Made by a program: the position numbers and the translations under genes | The notes under the pieces: generated by a model | The model's input: the letters and a program-made list of their open reading frames with translations, nothing else | Databases searched by the model: none | What the model was told of the DNA's origin: nothing | Shown here: positions 15,341-25,141 of the stretch, piece after piece | Layout of the letters: each line of letters opens with the position of its first letter | Position numbering within the stretch: position 1 is the stretch's first letter | Source of the DNA: a virus | DNA length: 41,710 nucleotides | Direction: 5' to 3' (one strand) | IMG/VR virus record: IMGVR_UViG_3300025889_000020 | Span: 1 to 41,710 of that record

Positions 15341-16315
15341 TTAGCTTAAAGCAGCTTCGAACTCAGCAACGGTTCCTAATTCAGTTCCGTTGTGGTAGAT
15401 GTTACCGTCAAACTTCGCACGAGTAGCTGAACCGTCAGTCGAAGAGATGTCGGTAGCAGCAGCAGTTGCGGAAGTAGAGAGAACCTTGAACATGTCGTCT
15501 CCTTCGTCCCAGATCAAAGCAACATTGCTTTCAGCAGAACCACGCTCAACGATGAAACCACCGTCATTCGAGGCATTTGTTCCGGAAGCAGCACCTTTAG
15601 AAAGGTTCATGATGCTGTCAGCAACATCGATGTTAGTGGTGTTTACGGAAGTCGTAGTACCATTAACAGTCAAGTTACCGCTGAATGTAGCATTAGCAGC
15701 CGAGATGTTACCGGAGAAGGAAGCGGAGTTACCGTCAGAAGCAAGCGATCCTGTAGCAGTTTGCAACGCAGAGATGTCGCTGTCATTGCTGGATACATTC
15801 GATTGCAGGGTGGAGATGTCCGAATCATTCGAAGAGACATTGCTTTGCAGCGTGCTAACATCAGATTGAAGTGAAGAAATATCACTGTCATTCGAGCTAA
15901 CATTAGACTGAAGAGTGCTGATGTTAGAGGCGTTAGTAGAAACGCTGGACTGAAGGCTGGAGATGTCGGTATCGTTAGAAGCAACAGCGTCAGCAACAGT
16001 TTTAAGTTGGCTATCAAGAGCTTCGTCAGCAGCTTTAAGGCTGGCTACAGAACCGAGATAGTTGGTCGAACCGTTAGCGGAATAAGAACCGTCAGTACCA
16101 AGACCAGCACCAGTTTGAGTAGCGTCAAGTTCTGATTGAATACCAGAAGCAGTAGAAGATACTGAATCTACATATTGCTTAGTAGCAGCGTGGAGGTTGG
16201 CAGTAGGAGCACCTGAGAGCGTCAAAGCTCCGGTCATTGTTCCTCCTGCGAGGGCAAGCTTCTTATCAAGCTCTACTTTGGTTTTTTGTCCCAATTGGGT
16301 AAGCAAACTAGACAT
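15341..16315 (-). CDS. Tail fibre-like protein with trimeric coiled-coil repeats
   Basis: A 324-residue structural protein. The N-terminus MSSLLTQLGQKTKVELDKKL is shared with the next gene upstream and may be an attachment module. GGTMTGALTLSGAPTANLHAATKQYVD (two pieces, about 24-50) is typical of phage tail fibre shafts. Residues 104-187 form about six copies of a 14-residue unit of the type VSSNDSDISxLQSN, i.e. heptads of a left-handed coiled coil. The C-terminal part repeats fibre-type beta motifs (FSGNISAANATFSGNLTVNG). It is likely to be part of the adsorption apparatus. The upstream leader has AAGGA at a workable distance. Confidence 0.8.
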   Translation of the reverse strand: MSSLLTQLGQKTKVELDKKLALAGGTMTGALTLSGAPTANLHAATKQYVDSVSSTASGIQSELDATQTGAGLGTDGSYSANGSTNYLGSVASLKAADEALDSQLKTVADAVASNDTDISSLQSSVSTNASNISTLQSNVSSNDSDISSLQSDVSTLQSNVSSNDSDISTLQSNVSSNDSDISALQTATGSLASDGNSASFSGNISAANATFSGNLTVNGTTTSVNTTNIDVADSIMNLSKGAASGTNASNDGGFIVERGSAESNVALIWDEGDDMFKVLSTSATAAATDISSTDGSATRAKFDGNIYHNGTELGTVAEFEAALS

Positions 16316-16379
16316 AATATATAATCCTTTGTTGTGGGTTAGTTGTGTTAAAAGAGAGTATTAGCAGAACTTATATCTG

Positions 16380-16724
16380 TCAAACAGGTTCAACAATAAG
16401 AATGTCTCCAACCTCTGTTGTCAAACTGTCTCCGTCTTCTGCAAGTATATGAGTAACAGTAGGTACTGCACCACCAAGCTCTATAATTTTCCAAGCTGTT
16501 CCGTCGTCAATCGCCAGACAAGGACCACCGCTTCCGTCACCATCTGTTACAAAGATAACACGACCTGATGTACCTACGGTTGGTAGAGCAGATGCTAGAT
16601 ACGATCCGAATTGTATAGATTGAGATACAGACAGATTACCACTTATCAACCCTCCTGACTTATCAAACTTATCAGTAAGCTTGGCTTTAACTTTCGCTCC
16701 GAGTTGTGTAAGTAAACTGCTCAT
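16380..16724 (-). CDS. Small tail-fibre-associated protein
   Basis: A 114-residue protein starting MSSLLTQLGAKVKAKLTDKF, closely matching the N-terminus of the downstream 324-residue fibre protein, then GGLISGNLSVSQSIQFGSYL, a fibre-type beta segment. The rest resembles short beta-sandwich proteins of tail appendages. The shared N-terminus suggests a gene duplication with different C-terminal domains, attached to the same virion partner. It starts three bases after the previous stop. Confidence 0.7.
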   Translation of the reverse strand: MSSLLTQLGAKVKAKLTDKFDKSGGLISGNLSVSQSIQFGSYLASALPTVGTSGRVIFVTDGDGSGGPCLAIDDGTAWKIIELGGAVPTVTHILAEDGDSLTTEVGDILIVEPV

Positions 16725-16726
16725 AT

Positions 16727-16960
16727 CTAAGGTGTTGTGAGACCGTCAAGGAAGTCTTGATAATCACCAACCTCCTCTTCGTGTGCATCTAAGAAGTAAG
16801 GCAAATCATTCCAGGCATTCGTCCCGTCACCTATCTTAATTCTGTTACGAGCAGGGTCTAATTCAAGACCTAGTTCACCTTCGAGAAGTACGGGGTTGGT
16901 GGTCTGCCAGTTGGCAGCAGTATCTCTTCTAAGTTGTATTCTTTTACTAAATGTAGCCAT
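16727..16960 (-). CDS. Small RRGT/RRDT-type tail protein
   Basis: A 77-residue protein starting MATFSKRIQLRRDTAANWQT. The sequence VLLEGELGLELDPARNRIKI followed by GDGTNAWNDLPY is the short beta-domain found at the N-terminus of many phage fibres and of major tropism determinant proteins. Here it stands alone with a short acidic C-terminus. Two other genes (18727-19188, 17996-18715) begin with the same type of domain. A receptor-binding or fibre-attachment role is likely. Confidence 0.75.
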   Translation of the reverse strand: MATFSKRIQLRRDTAANWQTTNPVLLEGELGLELDPARNRIKIGDGTNAWNDLPYFLDAHEEEVGDYQDFLDGLTTP

Positions 16961-16963
16961 CTG

Positions 16964-17197
16964 TTAAGCTCCTCCTCCATTGTAAACATCTAAGTTATTA
17001 TCAACGACAGCTCTTTGGGATTGAATGATTGGATCACTTAAAGGAGCGTCGCCAGCGTCTAAAGCAACGATATCAGGGTCTTGTTTCAAAAGTTCTACTG
17101 TTTGGTTCACTTGTGTGGCGACAGCAGCGGATACAGCGTTCAGCGTCCGGTACTGAGCGGATAGTGGGTGTGGACGAACTACAGGGCGACGAGGCAT
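16964..17197 (-). CDS. Small hypothetical virion-region protein
   Basis: A 77-residue protein starting MPRRPVVRPHPLSAQYRTLN, with a basic proline-rich N-terminus, a helical middle (AVSAAVATQVNQTVELLKQD) and a short glycine-rich end. It lies between the basic 91-residue gene and the RRDT-type protein, with only 2-3 nt between stops and starts. No family is recognised; a minor structural protein is likely by context. Confidence 0.65.
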   Translation of the reverse strand: MPRRPVVRPHPLSAQYRTLNAVSAAVATQVNQTVELLKQDPDIVALDAGDAPLSDPIIQSQRAVVDNNLDVYNGGGA

Positions 17198-17199
17198 GA

Positions 17200-17475
17200 C
17201 TACGCTACAGATTTAGCCCCTCTGCACTTCCACTTCTTACGACTGAGGCTATTAGGACTGTTAGGATCATTCTTCCAATTTCCTTTTATCTTTAGAGACC
17301 TAGCACAGTAAGCATCACCTTTAGCTGTTCCTGGTCTGATTCTATCACCACCACCTTTAGCTTTACCTGCTTGACCGTAGCCTATGCGACGCTTTCTACC
17401 TGTCTTAGGATTAGTAACAACTTTAACGAAACGCTTACCTTTAGGCTTCTTTATGCTAAGGTTCTTTCGTTTCAT
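17200..17475 (-). CDS. Conserved basic phage protein
   Basis: A 91-residue highly basic protein starting MKRKNLSIKKPKGKRFVKVV. Conserved-looking blocks are GYGQAGKAKGGGDRIRPGTA, YCARSLKIKGNW and NSLSRKKWKC. I recall this arrangement as common in marine phages, where its function is unknown. The charge and two cysteines suggest DNA or RNA binding, or a virion protein bound to DNA. The ATG overlaps the preceding stop as ATGA. Confidence 0.75.
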   Translation of the reverse strand: MKRKNLSIKKPKGKRFVKVVTNPKTGRKRRIGYGQAGKAKGGGDRIRPGTAKGDAYCARSLKIKGNWKNDPNSPNSLSRKKWKCRGAKSVA

Positions 17476-17591
17476 TTCTTCTTGATAGCTAACTTCTTAC
17501 GCTTAACAGCCATCAGGTCTGCTTTTGTTATGTGACCTCTAGGTTCAGCCATAGCTGCTAACCGTTGTTGTTTTTTAGATTTGTACGGCAT
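17472..17591 (-). CDS. Small basic phage protein (39 residues)
   Basis: Starts MPYKSKKQQRLAAMAEPRGH at an ATG at 17591 and ends in a lysine-rich tail with an ATGA overlap into the next gene. MPYKSKKQxR-type short proteins are common in phages and are often found close to basic proteins of this kind. The function is unknown. Confidence 0.7.
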   Translation of the reverse strand: MPYKSKKQQRLAAMAEPRGHITKADLMAVKRKKLAIKKK

Positions 17592-17592
17592 C

Positions 17593-17730
17593 TTAGCTAG
17601 GGAATCCTTTTTTCATGTTAGAGTAAGCTTTAGCACTTACCGTAGAATCTTTCTTACTACGACTAATACCTAAACGCCTACGGTTATTCATGTTCTCGTA
17701 CAGTCCTGGTCTTTTAATCTTTCTTTTCAT
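17593..17730 (-). CDS. Small basic phage protein (45 residues)
   Basis: Starts MKRKIKRPGLYENMNNRRRL at an ATG at 17730, with AGGA about nine bases upstream. It is highly basic, with the KRPGLYENxxxRR pattern known from short marine phage proteins. It is the first of three consecutive basic proteins. Function unknown; a nucleic-acid or virion-assembly role is conceivable. Confidence 0.7.
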   Translation of the reverse strand: MKRKIKRPGLYENMNNRRRLGISRSKKDSTVSAKAYSNMKKGFPS

Positions 17731-17734
17731 CTGT

Positions 17735-17986
17735 CTATTTCCTCACTAATACTTCAAGCATTCGATCCAGCTTCTTGTTCATCTCCTTGATAGCTTCCTC
17801 GACTTTCCCCATACGGGACTCCACAGCTATATCTCTTTCCCGTTGGGCAGCCAACTCTACCTCTATCTTTGTCAGGCGTTTATCACCGATGTCCATTCGT
17901 TCGATCATGCGTTTGATAATCCAACCGATAACTCCAAGAGAGATAGCTAATACGGTGTTAAGAAGTCCAGAGAGGGAGTCGATCAT
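17735..17986 (-). CDS. Membrane-anchored coiled-coil protein, holin or spanin candidate
   Basis: An 83-residue protein starting MIDSLSGLLNTVLAISLGVI. One membrane helix covers about residues 7-25, followed by a basic residue cluster (IIKRMIERMDIGDKR) and a long charged coiled coil. This topology suits a small holin or inner-membrane spanin subunit. In T7 the holin gene also lies shortly before the terminase genes. The gene sits 10 nt after a fibre gene and 5 nt before a basic small gene. Confidence 0.6.
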   Translation of the reverse strand: MIDSLSGLLNTVLAISLGVIGWIIKRMIERMDIGDKRLTKIEVELAAQRERDIAVESRMGKVEEAIKEMNKKLDRMLEVLVRK

Positions 17987-17995
17987 TGTTGGTGT

Positions 17996-18715
17996 TTATC
18001 CGATTGCGGTCAGTCTAACATATTTACCTGTAAAAGAAACACCTGTGTACGAACCCGATGATAAAGATTGATAACTTTGACCTAATCTAATTTGTACAGT
18101 TGAACTAGTTATTTCTTGTATTTGAGCACCTAGCATATTACCTGAATTATCATCGGATTGATGTTCTAATACTGATCGTGCATTAGTGCCTGAAGAGTCA
18201 TCAGCTACTTGAAAATAAAACACCAACGCATCAGTCGATCTACCGTGGCTAAATGTTAAAAGAACATTATTATTAACAGTCGTAGGAGACCCTTGATTGT
18301 CTTGATTTACCCACCCACTGTCGAACTTAGATACCACAACACTACCATTACTTGCAGCTGTGATTCTTCCTTGTGCGTCTACCGTTAAGTTTGTATTGGT
18401 GTAGCTACCAGCTGTAACTGCTGTGTTAGCTAACTGGTCTGGACCTACTCCATCATCTGCAATACTAAGCGTACCGCTAGTAGTAATAGGACCACCTGTC
18501 AGTCCTGTACCACTTCCTACTGAAGTTACCGTACCTCCACCTCCAGCTCCCAACTCACTGTGCTTTGCTAATCTTACACCAGTCCCAGCACCACCTCCAG
18601 TGTGTACCATGAGTGTGTCTAAGTCAGTATCTACTGTTACTTCTCCGACAGCACCCGCAAATGAACTGTGCTGTGATGTGGTTCCTCTTCTAAATTGTAC
18701 TTGTATGTTTGACAT
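17996..18715 (-). CDS. Tail fibre-like protein with RRGT-type N-terminal domain
   Basis: A 239-residue protein starting MSNIQVQFRRGTTSQHSSFA, an N-terminal fibre-attachment domain shared with the upstream gene, followed by glycine-rich GTVTSVGSGTGLTGGPITTS, a phage fibre shaft motif, then NLTVDAQGRITAAS. The C-terminal part is beta-rich and could bind a receptor. It belongs to the fibre cassette 15.3-20.0 kb. The leader before the ATG is AT-rich without a Shine-Dalgarno sequence. Confidence 0.8.
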   Translation of the reverse strand: MSNIQVQFRRGTTSQHSSFAGAVGEVTVDTDLDTLMVHTGGGAGTGVRLAKHSELGAGGGGTVTSVGSGTGLTGGPITTSGTLSIADDGVGPDQLANTAVTAGSYTNTNLTVDAQGRITAASNGSVVVSKFDSGWVNQDNQGSPTTVNNNVLLTFSHGRSTDALVFYFQVADDSSGTNARSVLEHQSDDNSGNMLGAQIQEITSSTVQIRLGQSYQSLSSGSYTGVSFTGKYVRLTAIG

Positions 18716-18726
18716 GGCTTATATTT

Positions 18727-19188
18727 TTATACGATTGATCCGAAGTCTAGTGTAGTAGCAAGCTTTGCAGAAGTTACAACGTTGTTAGCGATAACAGTAG
18801 CACCGTCTCCAGTACTGGTTACATCTCCGGTGTGGTTTGGATGGATATAGTTATTAGCACTTGTAGCAATACCGTCCAGCTTGGCTTTATCTTCATCTGT
18901 CATAGCTCCCCACGCACTTGTCGTAGCAGCTGGGATGGAAGCGTTAGTTCCTGTATCACTGTTAACAGTTAAAGAAGTTGCGTTAGCGGTTGTTGAAAGA
19001 TTGGTAGTACCAGCACCGCCACCTACCAGATTACCTCCAGTTGTAGTACCGTCACCCACATATAACAACTTTTGGTCAGTGGTGTAAATCAATTCACCTG
19101 CAAGAGGTTTAGCTGGGTTACCCACGCCTCCATCCATCGTTTGTCTTTGGGCGTCTGTGCCTCTTCTGATTTGTACTGCGATGCTCAT
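18727..19188 (-). CDS. Tail fibre-like protein with RRGT-type domain
   Basis: A 153-residue protein starting MSIAVQIRRGTDAQRQTMDG, then PLAGELIYTTDQKLLYVGDG, the same beta-domain as in two neighbouring genes. The later part includes DEDKAKLDGIATSANNYIHP, a sequence type widely found in phage tail fibres and neck proteins, then HTGDVTSTGDGATVIANN. Likely a shaft component of the adsorption apparatus. Confidence 0.8.
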   Translation of the reverse strand: MSIAVQIRRGTDAQRQTMDGGVGNPAKPLAGELIYTTDQKLLYVGDGTTTGGNLVGGGAGTTNLSTTANATSLTVNSDTGTNASIPAATTSAWGAMTDEDKAKLDGIATSANNYIHPNHTGDVTSTGDGATVIANNVVTSAKLATTLDFGSIV

Positions 19189-20008: not shown

Positions 20009-23000
20009 TTATTGAGTGAGAAGAGCAAGTACATCTTGTTGAGAGCCTTGTCTTTTCGCAGCTTTTATTTGATTCTGTTGCTGAAGCAGTTCAGGGAACT
20101 CTTGTAACATCTGCATTCTAGCCCTCGATCTATATCTACTCATTATTCTTTGTATGTATTCAACACGTGGACTAGGCAAACCGCTGTACGATGTTGCGTC
20201 TAAAGCTTGGTAACGTGAATCAGCAAACAACTTCTCAAAGGCTTGTCTCATAGTGAAACCGTTTATGGTAACTTCAGAATGTAATTCCATCCATCTATCA
20301 TAAGCACTTCTTCCGTTAGCTTGTTCGTAATCTAATAGATCAATAACACCATCTAACTTCGTACTGGGTGCAGAAAAACCGTGTCCGACTTTAGCTAACT
20401 CCAACATAACAGAGTCGTTACTAGCTGATCCCCACATAACAGGATTCAAAGGGTTGATAACACCAGCGACCCCCTCAAAGTACTCTTGTACTACAGGTTC
20501 CCCTAATGGATTGCGTTTCAAATCTAATGTAGTACCGGGTATTCTTTTAAGAACTACATCAGCAAATGTCCTAGCTTCTTCTAACTGTTGATCTCCTGTT
20601 ATAGATTGACCTTGGTTGAATATGTTAGGAATGAAACCTCCCACAACAGTTCCTCCATACTTACCAGCAGTAGTAGACTCTGGGTCAAAGATAGCCTTAA
20701 AGAAGTTATCAATACCAGCTAAGTAAGACTTGTTAGTAGCGTTCCTAGTTAAAGCTAGAGTCATTGAAGAAGCTAACTTCATAAGAACATTATCATCAAC
20801 GCTGTGCATCTTACCGTCTTCCATCAAGTCAGCGGTATCTGCATACATACCAATCATAGTAGCTATAGGATCGAGACGACCGTAACTTATCCACTTATCT
20901 CCAATCTTTATACTATATGGAACATTACCAGCAGCTTCCCATATCTTCCTTTGCTTAAAGTCTTTAGGGCCTTGTCCGTTAATTCTGTCTTTAAAGTTAA
21001 ATACAGCAACCATCATAGCTCCATTCAACAAAGCACTAAATGCTAACTTACCCTTTACCTCTGCTCTCTTTAAATGGTCAGGAGTTCCGTCAGCCTTTAC
21101 AGCATTCAACTGCTCAAGTATAGAGTTCTTAGCGTCTTCTGTAGCTGGCATCCCTTTCCTTAAACGCTCAATCCTAGCTTTGTATTCAGGAGCTACTAAA
21201 GGTAGTTTTTCTCTGAGCTTATCAAACGCTAACATTTCCCAAGCACCTAATCTACTAAAAGAGAATTTAAGAATGTTTGTTGGGGTCCTGATAAATGGAG
21301 CAACGATAAATCCTCCTGGAAAACCGCTAACAAACTTTTGTAGTAGCTGCATGTTTTTACCAAGCTCAGTAGAGAAAGTTATCTCATCAGCAGATGCTAA
21401 GTTAGGTTCAACAAAATCTCTAGTCAAAGCATCTAAAGCTTCAAAGTCAGTACTAGATTCATCTACTAAACCTAATCGTCTTGAACGTTCCGCTGTTTCC
21501 TTTTTAGCTTGCTCTACATATTCGTAGATCGCTTTCTCTCTGTCAGACGGTGCGTCAAACTTCTGATCTTTTACAGATGCTTGAGCTTCTTTAATTAGAT
21601 TAGCTTCAGAGAAGTTCCTGTTAGAACGAGTTAACAAAGCTTGCATAGCGTCAGCTGTATACTCTGCTATCTTCTCTGGGTCTTGTATACCTAAGTCCAT
21701 TGCTTTAGTACGGAGCATCGTTTCAGCACGAGTTCTGTACTCATTAAATTTGTACATTTGATCCCAAGCTTGGTTGGTTCTGTTTGGTAACCGTACGGCT
21801 TTCCCAATCCAATCTATTGCTGTCTCTAGACCGTCTGATAATTCAGTTCCTAACACTTCTCCTACATTCTTTCCGGTAATTGATCCTATGCTATCTTCAG
21901 TTTGTTCTACGAAAGCTGATCTAGCATCTCCGATATAATAATCACCGCTCTTCCACGCATTAAGCATGAATCGAACTAAACCTGTTAATTGAAAGTTTTT
22001 AGAACTAGCGTGTGTTATAGCTTTCTTTGTAGCAGGATCAGCACTCATCCAACCACCTACATATCTCTCAAACTGCTTAACAGATGTAGACATAAAACCA
22101 CCCCCAGCATTTACCGTTATAGTACGAGGTCCCCACATTAAAGCATTTTTATAATATTCTTCTACCATTTTTAAGAACTTGCCTCCCTCATGTCCTCTTA
22201 TGGTATTGTTCATCCCTATAATAGTATTCCACACATCATCTCCGCCTTTAGCCTTAGCGAACAATATGTTTTCCACTATTTGGTCAATGGTTAAACCGCC
22301 TTTCTTACGGAGATAATCGTTCCTGAGTTTTCTGTCAGTTATTTCAACTCTATCTAGTCCAATCCTAGCTTTCATTTGTGTAGTTTTTAAACCAAATCCG
22401 AACCCACTAGATAACCCAGAAACACCTGCTTGTATATGAAGTTGGAGGTCTATTAAACTTTTAATCCGTGCTTCTAGGATTTCTAATTCTTCCTCTCCTA
22501 GTTTAGCTCTACCTACATTGTATTCTTCAGCTAACTTAATAATCTCTTGCCCGTTCTTAGTTAAACCAGCTCGAAGACTTACATGACGTAATGCAATTCT
22601 TCTTAACTGAACAGCATCGTTTTTATATTGATTAACTAATCCTTTAAGAAAGTTCCCATCGGCTCCTGTAGCGTCAGCCATTTCATTAAGAACGCCTTCA
22701 TCTAACATCTCTTGAGTATACTTAGCTACTTGGTTCGATCCTTGTAGTTTTTCAGCACCAGCATCCAACATAGCCATAATCTCATCAGCGTATGCACCTG
22801 ATGGTATATCAAAATCATTTGCTACAGCTTTAGCTACACCGTCAATAGCTTGCCTGCCGCCAGTTCTTATACTTTTAACAGATACATCGTCTATTGATTT
22901 TTTAATAATATCATCACTAAACTCAGGCATCTCGGCAAAAGTTCTACCAAACTCTAAAGGACGCTGACGCTGTATCTTTATATTACGCTGTTTAATAAAG

Positions 23001-25141
23001 TCGTTAAATATCTTCTGTCTTTGATCGATACCTAACTTAGCCTTCAAAGAAGCAAACATATCCTTGAACATGATCGCTACTTCTTGTGCTATTCTTTTAA
23101 GTGTGCCTTGAGGAGCTAAGTCTTTCTCATCTAACTTCTTCAAGAAAGCATCCGTCATCTCCTCCGCAAAGTATTCGTCTACATCTGCGTATCTGTAGTT
23201 ATCGCTGGTAAACTCCCCTTTCTTGAATCCGTTCAGTTCTTTCGCTAACGCTATTCTTTCACTTGGAGTCTTAGCTTTGTCTTTAGCTCTTTTACTTAAA
23301 TCGTCTAAATAGTTCTGACGCTCTTTTTGAAATTGTTTAGTTAAAGAATCTACATCAGTTGAAGGAAGATAACGACTAAGGCTATGCCACAACTCGTGAA
23401 CCATAGTTCTTTTAATCTCACCCTTATCTATAGTAGCTTGTCTTATTTGTAGTAGATTGTTACCAAAGTTATAACGACCAGCTGAGGGTATTTTATTAGT
23501 AACAGACAGAGATACATCACCAAACAGGCGTTGTCCCATTACATCTATAAACTTCTCTACATCCGCTACATCCTCCGGATCAGCTCCCTTTATAGGGAAC
23601 TTCTTCATCAACCTACTCTTTAAGTTACCAGCCCCTTTAGGAATAATATCCATCATGGCTTCTTCTTCGTAGGTCTTGAATGGTCCTGGTCTTCTATCTA
23701 TAGCTTCATCAAAGTCTTCGATAGTTTCACCGAGGTCGTCTAGTTTTTGTTGTAGTTCTGGTTCAACTTGCTTCTCTCGAAACTCCGGCATTTCCGCAAA
23801 AGGTCTATCTCTTCTTCCTCGAAAATCCTTTGGAGACTCTCCCATCGTAACAAGTTCATCCATTAACCGTTCTTCAGGAAAGTTAACAGCTTTAGATATT
23901 TCCCTAATAGAATACCCTTCTTGCCACATATCTATAGCAGCGTTTAATGCTGTATCCTCACGTCTTTTAGATAACTCGAAAGCATCCAATCCAGTGTCAA
24001 AACCTTTATCCTTACGCCCTAGCATTATATCCCTAACATCCTCTCCTAAAGATATTAGTTCTTGTTCTATAAATTCAGGTTCTAAGTTTACTGTTTTAGA
24101 AATTTCATCTGGAGAGTAGCCTTCGTCCCACATCTTTAAAGCTACATTCATTCCTATAGCTTCTTGTGTTTCTCTTGTTACTTCAAAGCCTGTATCTTTT
24201 CTTCCTAGTGAGAAATCTCTAGGGTCCTCTCCTATATCTAGTAAATAGTCCTGTATTCTCTTTTTATCAATCTTGAGAGTTCTTTTTATTTCATCTAAGC
24301 TGTAACCGCTATCCCACATAAAAAGACTTTTATTTTTTAATACATCTTCTTCTGTTAACGGTTCTCTAACAAACTTCTTTCCTTCAGCAAAACTAGGCAG
24401 ATCAGCAAACGCTTCTCCTTTAGTCTGGTCTTGCCATTTAAACATAGCAGAAGTTATAGCGTCCTCTCTAGTAGCACCTTTACTTACTTCTGTGTTCTTA
24501 ACCTTAATAGCATCAAGACCAGCTGTGAATCCTTTAAACAAACCTGCTAGACCTAACCCTACAAGCTGCCCCTCAATGACATTTTTTAACCTACCTTCCA
24601 ACTCACTGTCTTCAGGATCAGCAGCCAAGTATTGAGTAACTGCGTTATTAAAAGCTGGGTTATCGGATTCAGTCAACAAATTGGCTAACCTCTGTTCTTG
24701 ACCGTCGAATGCTGCAAAGTCTGTAGCTAGTTCCGCTCCTAATAATCCAGTTACTTTTACATCGGTAAACTTACCTGGTTTCTTACCTTTAGTTAGAGCT
24801 TTCGCTGCTTTACCTGTAACACCTGTTAGCTTACCTGCTCTAGCTGCTTTACCTGCTACACTAATCCCCTTTCCAATAGCACCGAAAGGAACAGCAAACT
24901 GTACTAAACTAGTAGCTATATCACCCGCCATTGTTTTAGAACGACCAAACAAACGCTGCTCGTCCCAATCTGGTAACACATCGAATGACAAGAAATCTCC
25001 TAAATTATAAACACCGTGAGCCATGCTCTCCAATCCTCTAGGAACACTAGCAGCTATATCTAAAACATAGTCACTAACTCCTAACGATTCTTTTTTAGAA
25101 GTGCTTAAATCAAACTCGCTATAATCTTCAGTAAACTTCAT
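20009..25141 (-). CDS. Large internal virion protein (T7 gp16 position) with zincin-like motif and HTH-like repeats
   Basis: A 1710-residue protein in the position of T7 gp16 (1318). Domain order by eye: N-terminal part with Ala/Gly-rich helices (1-244); three repeats of about 60 residues (W276, W338, W406) of the type WxxGYSxxEIxxxxx, resembling sigma/HTH helices; a segment with HELWH (582-586) and a downstream YFAEE (657-661), a candidate zinc metallopeptidase site; then about 950 residues, mostly helical. FADLPSF (245-251), FAEMPEF (448-454) and FAEMPEF (735-741) lie at the borders. No lytic transglycosylase motif of T7 gp16 type is seen. It probably forms part of the ejected core that opens a DNA path through the envelope. 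Its ATG overlaps the preceding stop as TAATG. Confidence 0.8.
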   Translation of the reverse strand: MKFTEDYSEFDLSTSKKESLGVSDYVLDIAASVPRGLESMAHGVYNLGDFLSFDVLPDWDEQRLFGRSKTMAGDIATSLVQFAVPFGAIGKGISVAGKAARAGKLTGVTGKAAKALTKGKKPGKFTDVKVTGLLGAELATDFAAFDGQEQRLANLLTESDNPAFNNAVTQYLAADPEDSELEGRLKNVIEGQLVGLGLAGLFKGFTAGLDAIKVKNTEVSKGATREDAITSAMFKWQDQTKGEAFADLPSFAEGKKFVREPLTEEDVLKNKSLFMWDSGYSLDEIKRTLKIDKKRIQDYLLDIGEDPRDFSLGRKDTGFEVTRETQEAIGMNVALKMWDEGYSPDEISKTVNLEPEFIEQELISLGEDVRDIMLGRKDKGFDTGLDAFELSKRREDTALNAAIDMWQEGYSIREISKAVNFPEERLMDELVTMGESPKDFRGRRDRPFAEMPEFREKQVEPELQQKLDDLGETIEDFDEAIDRRPGPFKTYEEEAMMDIIPKGAGNLKSRLMKKFPIKGADPEDVADVEKFIDVMGQRLFGDVSLSVTNKIPSAGRYNFGNNLLQIRQATIDKGEIKRTMVHELWHSLSRYLPSTDVDSLTKQFQKERQNYLDDLSKRAKDKAKTPSERIALAKELNGFKKGEFTSDNYRYADVDEYFAEEMTDAFLKKLDEKDLAPQGTLKRIAQEVAIMFKDMFASLKAKLGIDQRQKIFNDFIKQRNIKIQRQRPLEFGRTFAEMPEFSDDIIKKSIDDVSVKSIRTGGRQAIDGVAKAVANDFDIPSGAYADEIMAMLDAGAEKLQGSNQVAKYTQEMLDEGVLNEMADATGADGNFLKGLVNQYKNDAVQLRRIALRHVSLRAGLTKNGQEIIKLAEEYNVGRAKLGEEELEILEARIKSLIDLQLHIQAGVSGLSSGFGFGLKTTQMKARIGLDRVEITDRKLRNDYLRKKGGLTIDQIVENILFAKAKGGDDVWNTIIGMNNTIRGHEGGKFLKMVEEYYKNALMWGPRTITVNAGGGFMSTSVKQFERYVGGWMSADPATKKAITHASSKNFQLTGLVRFMLNAWKSGDYYIGDARSAFVEQTEDSIGSITGKNVGEVLGTELSDGLETAIDWIGKAVRLPNRTNQAWDQMYKFNEYRTRAETMLRTKAMDLGIQDPEKIAEYTADAMQALLTRSNRNFSEANLIKEAQASVKDQKFDAPSDREKAIYEYVEQAKKETAERSRRLGLVDESSTDFEALDALTRDFVEPNLASADEITFSTELGKNMQLLQKFVSGFPGGFIVAPFIRTPTNILKFSFSRLGAWEMLAFDKLREKLPLVAPEYKARIERLRKGMPATEDAKNSILEQLNAVKADGTPDHLKRAEVKGKLAFSALLNGAMMVAVFNFKDRINGQGPKDFKQRKIWEAAGNVPYSIKIGDKWISYGRLDPIATMIGMYADTADLMEDGKMHSVDDNVLMKLASSMTLALTRNATNKSYLAGIDNFFKAIFDPESTTAGKYGGTVVGGFIPNIFNQGQSITGDQQLEEARTFADVVLKRIPGTTLDLKRNPLGEPVVQEYFEGVAGVINPLNPVMWGSASNDSVMLELAKVGHGFSAPSTKLDGVIDLLDYEQANGRSAYDRWMELHSEVTINGFTMRQAFEKLFADSRYQALDATSYSGLPSPRVEYIQRIMSRYRSRARMQMLQEFPELLQQQNQIKAAKRQGSQQDVLALLTQ

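Follow-up and report, generated by a model that had tools for sequence, protein, structure and literature searches.

Why should a short peptide recur almost unchanged at the internal borders of a giant phage virion protein? The question is raised by a virus record of 41,710 bases (the whole stretch of DNA analysed, referred to below as the window), in which a minus-strand open reading frame, 20009-25141, encodes a product of 1710 aa. An earlier note had placed in this product three FAEMPEF-type motifs, two of them identical in protein and similar in DNA, at the borders of an HTH-like repeat block and an HEXXH block, and had offered processing sites, linkers or docking peptides as explanations. 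All three motifs indeed lie in frame on the minus strand (Table 1). Motifs 1 and 2 flank three HTH repeats (HTH_40), motifs 2 and 3 flank the block that carries HELWH, and the two FAEMPEF copies encode the same peptide with 3 of 21 nucleotides different, every difference being synonymous.

Table 1. Modules and junction motifs of the 1710-aa protein (window coordinates)
Feature	Position	Strand	Basis
gp16-like internal virion (ejection) protein, 1710 aa, motif carrier	20009..25141	-	PHROG 6651, tblastn
N-terminal domain, aa 1-244	24410..25141	-	lineages common to different zincin classes in relatives
Junction motif 1, FADLPSF, aa 245-251	24389..24409	-	in pLDDT<50 segment
Three-fold HTH module, aa 252-447	23801..24388	-	HTH_40 E=3.7e-10; swapped as unit
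Junction motif 2, FAEMPEF, aa 448-454	23780..23800	-	in pLDDT<50 segment
Zincin-like module, aa 455-734	22940..23779	-	alignment A2; hhalign E=1.4e-5 to second zincin class; fold unconfirmed
HELWH (HEXXH) putative zinc-binding motif, aa 582-586	23384..23398	-	invariant in 49 aligned sequences (A1)
Junction motif 3, FAEMPEF, aa 735-741	22919..22939	-	in pLDDT<50 segment
C-terminal gp16-like body, aa 742-1710	20009..22918	-	one of at least three body types after motif 3 in relatives

Judged by its homologous body and by gene order, the product is a T7 gp16-like ejection protein. It is matched by PHROG 6651, annotated as 'internal virion protein' (E=4.4e-39), and by tblastn to 'internal virion protein D' of Autographiviridae infecting Pelagibacter and Roseobacter. 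Its neighbours are gp13-, gp14-, gp15- and tail-fibre-like (Phage_T7_tail, E=3.4e-25; the T7_gp14 match is weak, E=6e-4, below the cut-off). The likeness to T7 gp16 and protein D thus covers the gp14-/gp15-like and tail fibre neighbours and the C-terminal body. T7 gp16 itself, however, has an N-terminal lytic transglycosylase, for which a Pfam search of the window protein gave no match, and the gp16 proteins of the isolates or fosmids CRP-125, HTVC119P, HTVC200P and MedDCM-OCT-S28-C10, unlike the window protein, have neither HEXXH nor the border motif. The domain content of gp16 homologues is known to vary, as is domain mosaicism in ejection proteins (PMC8954989). This giant protein of a marine phage is probably carried in the head and then injected. 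Elsewhere in the window, positions 15341-19188 hold a run of small tail-fibre-like genes with common N-terminal signatures (MSSLLTQLG and QIRRGT/QFRRGT/QLRRDT), of which 15341-16315 contain a repeated SSLQS/TLQSNVSSNDSD stretch.

The module is assigned to the zincins from HELWH, a Glu downstream of it and its profile match with a further HEXXH class. HELWH and DEYFAEE, the latter supplying the downstream conserved Glu, are kept in alignments A1 and A2, and the HELWH class aligns with the HEILH class at HEXXH and at DEF (hhalign, Table 1). Pfam gave no peptidase match above cut-off for the module. AlphaFold2 modelled it as all-helical (pTM 0.69), and a structure search with this model found at best unrelated helical proteins in the PDB (Z 5.3) and no viral match at E<=0.001. 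This failure to recover a zincin fold was not counted as evidence against one. As has been noted for N4, HEXXH is not restricted to proteases.

The motif is rare outside its junctions. From its composition, the 1710-aa protein is expected to contain 2e-4 copies of FA[DE][LM]PxF and 2e-6 copies of exact FAEMPEF. A six-frame translation of the window holds just three copies of the core [AS][DE][LM]Px[FL], every one of them in the 1710-aa protein, and the broader pattern [FY][AS][DE][LMI]Px[FL] was absent from the other open frames of related loci, 493,553 residues in all, on which ground we rejected the motif as a substrate common to other virion proteins. It was likewise rejected as a wider phage motif: scans of IMG/VR DNA with FA[DE]MP[DE]F and FADLP[DE]F returned its own family and unrelated proteins, the latter mostly with one copy, which by a rough estimate is about the level of chance. 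At 38 junctions with flanks below 60% identity, the motif stands out as a sharp island of seven residues, with about 3-4 bits at positions 1, 2, 4 and 7 and about 1-2 in the flanks, part of this being fixed by the search pattern.

The predicted structures, which the earlier note had suggested consulting, place the motifs in disordered linkers rather than in folded cores. In an AlphaFold2 model of aa 195-830 they fall in three of the low-confidence segments (model residues 49-68, 249-265 and 526-549). When the zincin module was modelled by itself, the two ends that bear motifs (1-28 and 274-294) had pLDDT below 50, and the core reached 77-94. Both models are modest, with mean pLDDT of 61 and 72, respectively.

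Relatives were collected as a family set of 107 nonredundant proteins, drawn from IMG/VR scans and five phage-collection records; tblastn against INPHARED gave no match in cultured phages for the zincin or the HTH module. One or more copies of the motif core are present in 57 of 66 proteins with an HELWH zincin and in none of 28 with another zincin class. Comparison of relatives, also proposed in the earlier note, bears out that the motif is kept at the same borders, mostly in HELWH-zincin proteins, while modules and linkers vary. Two of the three outcomes that the note had named as refuting, motifs within folded cores and free variation among relatives, were thus looked for and not seen. The three-HTH block, ART-PolyVal, a ParB-like module, the zincin and the C-terminal body are all swapped, and what lies between motifs may be three HTH repeats, a module starting EKPKAAYQ, ART-PolyVal, coiled-coil-like stretches or the zincin only. 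Extra modules bring extra motifs: the EKPKAAYQ module, of about 140 aa, sits between FAEFPTF and FTDLPSF, and an ART-PolyVal module is followed by TADLPSF. Linkers between the HTH repeats carry no motif. Taken as a whole, this is an ejection protein of modular, polyvalent type, with an exchangeable HTH and zincin-like cassette between a conserved N-domain and the body; it combines effector-type domains (HTH and HEXXH modules here, ART-PolyVal PF18760 in the sister cassette of L026).

Exchange leaves its mark at the motifs. L005 and L020 are mostly 12-60% identical in N-domain and body and mostly 76-100% identical in the cassette, the change falling at motifs 1 and 3. The same switch is seen in L001/L150 (L150 being on the same contig as L008), L002/L017, L125/L123 and L099/L006, and L126/L040 is the reverse case. 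Residue and nucleotide views of the recombinant pairs alike put the switch in identity within or beside the motif.

Several relatives depart from this arrangement. Some HELWH proteins, with ART-PolyVal and ParB-like cassettes, lack motif 1. In L026 (ORF 2851) an ART-PolyVal ADP-ribosyltransferase at aa ~205-435 (PF18760, E=2e-10) directly precedes a TA[DE][LM]P.F border, as it does in L031, L107 and L139; in L023 (ORF 2284) a ParB/DdrB-like stretch at aa ~215-360 (DGNHRYELAKMAG), with no Pfam match, replaces the HTH repeats, and motif 1 is absent. A divergent HELWH-zincin group (L114, L115, L129, L130, L140 and L144) has KEMKDF-like peptides after the zincin (e.g. VKKMQDF) or no motif, with upstream sites in some members reading K-L-[LM]-P-D-[FL]. 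A remote HELWH-zincin protein (28% identity) is encoded at 4068-6857 of L235, a contig filed as a bacterial MAG; its post-zincin linker, PPLAFGSRVFETPDL, faintly resembles PLEFGRTFAEMPEF. A general rule for giant zincin proteins was rejected, as Xanthomonas phages CP2 and SAC, Ruegeria phage 45A6 and L235 have no equivalent repeated peptide.

Within the family, the presence of the full motif depends on the class of the zincin. At the body junction it is found in 53 of 54 proteins with HELWH and in 0 of 24 with other zincins (HEATH, HESTH, HEGTH and HEILH), on the same body types A, B and C; the other classes are combined with the same N-domain types as well, and 12 HELWH proteins with an untyped body, mostly of the divergent group, lie outside this count. 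The raw Fisher p for the split is 3e-19; since the sequences are related, it is safer to count body types, of which there are three, each found with both classes. At the N-domain junction, on the same N-domain types, the figures are 38/44 for HELWH and 0/10 for other classes. The other-class body junctions instead carry FAP[EPSK] (11/24) or RG[VI]PxF (9/24), neither of which ever occurs at typed HELWH junctions.

The two halves of the motif behave differently. As far as these junction comparisons go, the first half, FA[DE], follows the zincin class, while the second half, hydrophobic-P-x-[FL], goes with the body: it is found in 54/54 HELWH junctions and 17/24 others, compared with 6.8% of random 30-aa windows. 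Other zincin classes thus retain part of the motif. In L222, of another class, the cassette starts at ...AFAPELSL and ends at ...DFAPELPKL; FAPELPKL resembles FAELPKL with one inserted Pro, so the peptides of the two classes are variants of one theme rather than unrelated peptides. Some other-zincin proteins also show peptide repeats of their own. L010 (ORF 1889, 2218 aa) has two HEXXH modules, HEATH at aa ~962 and HEILH at aa ~1238, the second with an identical ARGEFKAD peptide on both sides. In L218 (aa 331 and 886) and L227 (aa 17 and 644), DFAP-type peptides precede a short domain (YVYSDGKQFGPFNREQV), GYF-like by eye, as if this class had module borders of its own.

We propose that the zincin-like domain of the cassette itself uses the motifs as recognition sites that delimit modules, and probably as cleavage sites, a reading to which we assign a probability of roughly 0.5. 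The site is repeated at junctions, predicted to be accessible and, in its first half only, tied to the type of protease. The placing of the motifs at domain junctions in the earlier note holds; of the functions that it suggested, the link between FA[DE] and zincin class favours candidate processing sites over docking to a common partner. Most economically, the cassette's own zincin would recognise the junctions and cut them. A change at both cassette ends when nothing but the zincin class differs would not be explained by a partner that all these phages have in common.

The most serious rival, which we consider unlikely, is a docking peptide that binds another internal virion protein, the portal or, as an uncut clasp or inhibitory peptide, the zincin itself, and so keeps the modules in place within the head or at the tail. 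A disordered linker holding seven conserved residues, two Phe and a Pro among them, has the look of a typical binding motif, and the persistence of hydrophobic-P-x-[FL] whatever the zincin fits docking as well. With a common virion protein as partner, however, zincin class should make no difference to the first half where N-domains and bodies are of the same types, yet it does, and this tie speaks for a processing site rather than for docking to a shared partner. The motif may act as a clasp inside the zincin module, although the model leaves the flanks unplaced (pLDDT<50).

The switch in identity at the motif in swapped pairs also suits a recombination seam, that is, a short boundary sequence that eases homologous exchange, or a passenger of the cassette, without a function in the protein. 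Phage mosaicism has been proposed to occur at short boundary sequences (PMC3029335), and the motif DNA is identical at 16-20 of 21 positions where one flank is unrelated. Codon choice at several motif positions is, moreover, more biased than gene-wide usage, a bias that looked significant. Against a seam, 63 context-distinct copies comprise 55 distinct DNA 21-mers and 23 peptides, the D/E, L/M and F/L replacements follow protein similarity, and cassettes of other classes have come to be joined to the same types of N-domain and body in the absence of FA[DE][LM]Px[FL]. In a control for shared ancestry, wobble entropy at motif 3 was within the range of conserved zincin columns of the same sequences; with wobble as free as at ordinary conserved residues, conservation is at the level of protein. 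DNA-level conservation beyond coding was rejected on this ground, with some bias relative to gene-wide usage remaining. Codon comparison thus suggests that the bias probably reflects shared descent and that selection acts on the peptide, and we regard a seam as improbable. Least probable is a hinge or unfolding linker, a structural joint for bending or for threading through the tail during ejection: the motif does lie between folded modules in predicted disorder, but hinges seldom require seven near-fixed residues, the linkers between HTH repeats do without the motif, and the dependence on zincin class would be left unexplained.

If the motifs are sites of the cassette's own zincin, the protein would be carried as a single chain fit for threading through the tail, in which the zincin would recognise the motif and probably cut there. 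Cuts at every junction, made in the course of ejection, afterwards or in the head, would separate the HTH, ART or ParB-like modules from the body that forms the channel. A hydrophobic residue just after the cut is a common preference of zincins, as established for thermolysin-like enzymes, and the half common to both classes is hydrophobic-P-x-[FL]; for these reasons the scissile bond may tentatively be placed at [DE]|[LM], and at G|[VI] in the RG[VI]PxF class. Against cleavage we counted the all-helical zincin model with no convincing structural match, the want of a Pfam peptidase match above cut-off, the lack of a repeated peptide in CP2 and SAC, the motif gaps in some HELWH proteins, the second half that does not follow the zincin, and the case of N4 vRNAP, which is not cut.

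Like the polyvalent proteins that Iyer et al. 2017 (PMC5512222) describe from phages and conjugative elements, the window protein is large and multidomain, has HEXXH with a downstream conserved Glu, and has sister cassettes with ART-PolyVal; unlike them, it has a T7-type gp16-like scaffold and a repeated border peptide linked to zincin class, which we did not find described in the available text of that study. The same source names phage P1 DdrB and N4 vRNAP as giant virion-carried proteins with zincin-like domains, of which DdrB is processed before packaging and N4 vRNAP, despite its HEXXH domain, is packaged unprocessed (PMC5512222); for neither does the available text mention a border motif such as that of the window protein. 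In Salmonella phage SPN3US, a phage-encoded prohead protease cuts head proteins, ejected ones included, during head assembly (PMC10052503). This protease is a separate gene product, whereas the candidate protease here is in the same chain, and the motif is found in no other open frame of the related loci. The earlier note's statement that it knew of no described system of this type in gp16-like proteins holds in part. A limited search of the open-access literature found nothing on the motif string, on short linear motifs in internal virion proteins or on class-linked junction peptides. The idea of processing, in turn, is not wholly undescribed, since processing of polyvalent proteins by their zincins was proposed in general form by Iyer et al. 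(PMC5512222).

No domain is reported to be commoner in polyvalent proteins than the zincin (PMC5512222). For the question of what these zincins do, self-processing included, a conserved junction peptide matched to zincin class is a concrete candidate substrate, giving predicted fragment borders and simple mutants. The motif also offers a sequence rule for locating module borders in giant injected phage proteins. More tentatively, and with less confidence than in the sites themselves, the effector modules of an injected protein may be separated by a protease-specific junction code, that is, by peptides matched to the zincin of the same cassette. If so, new modules could be inserted and still be released after injection, and a change of zincin class would alter the code at both ends of the cassette.
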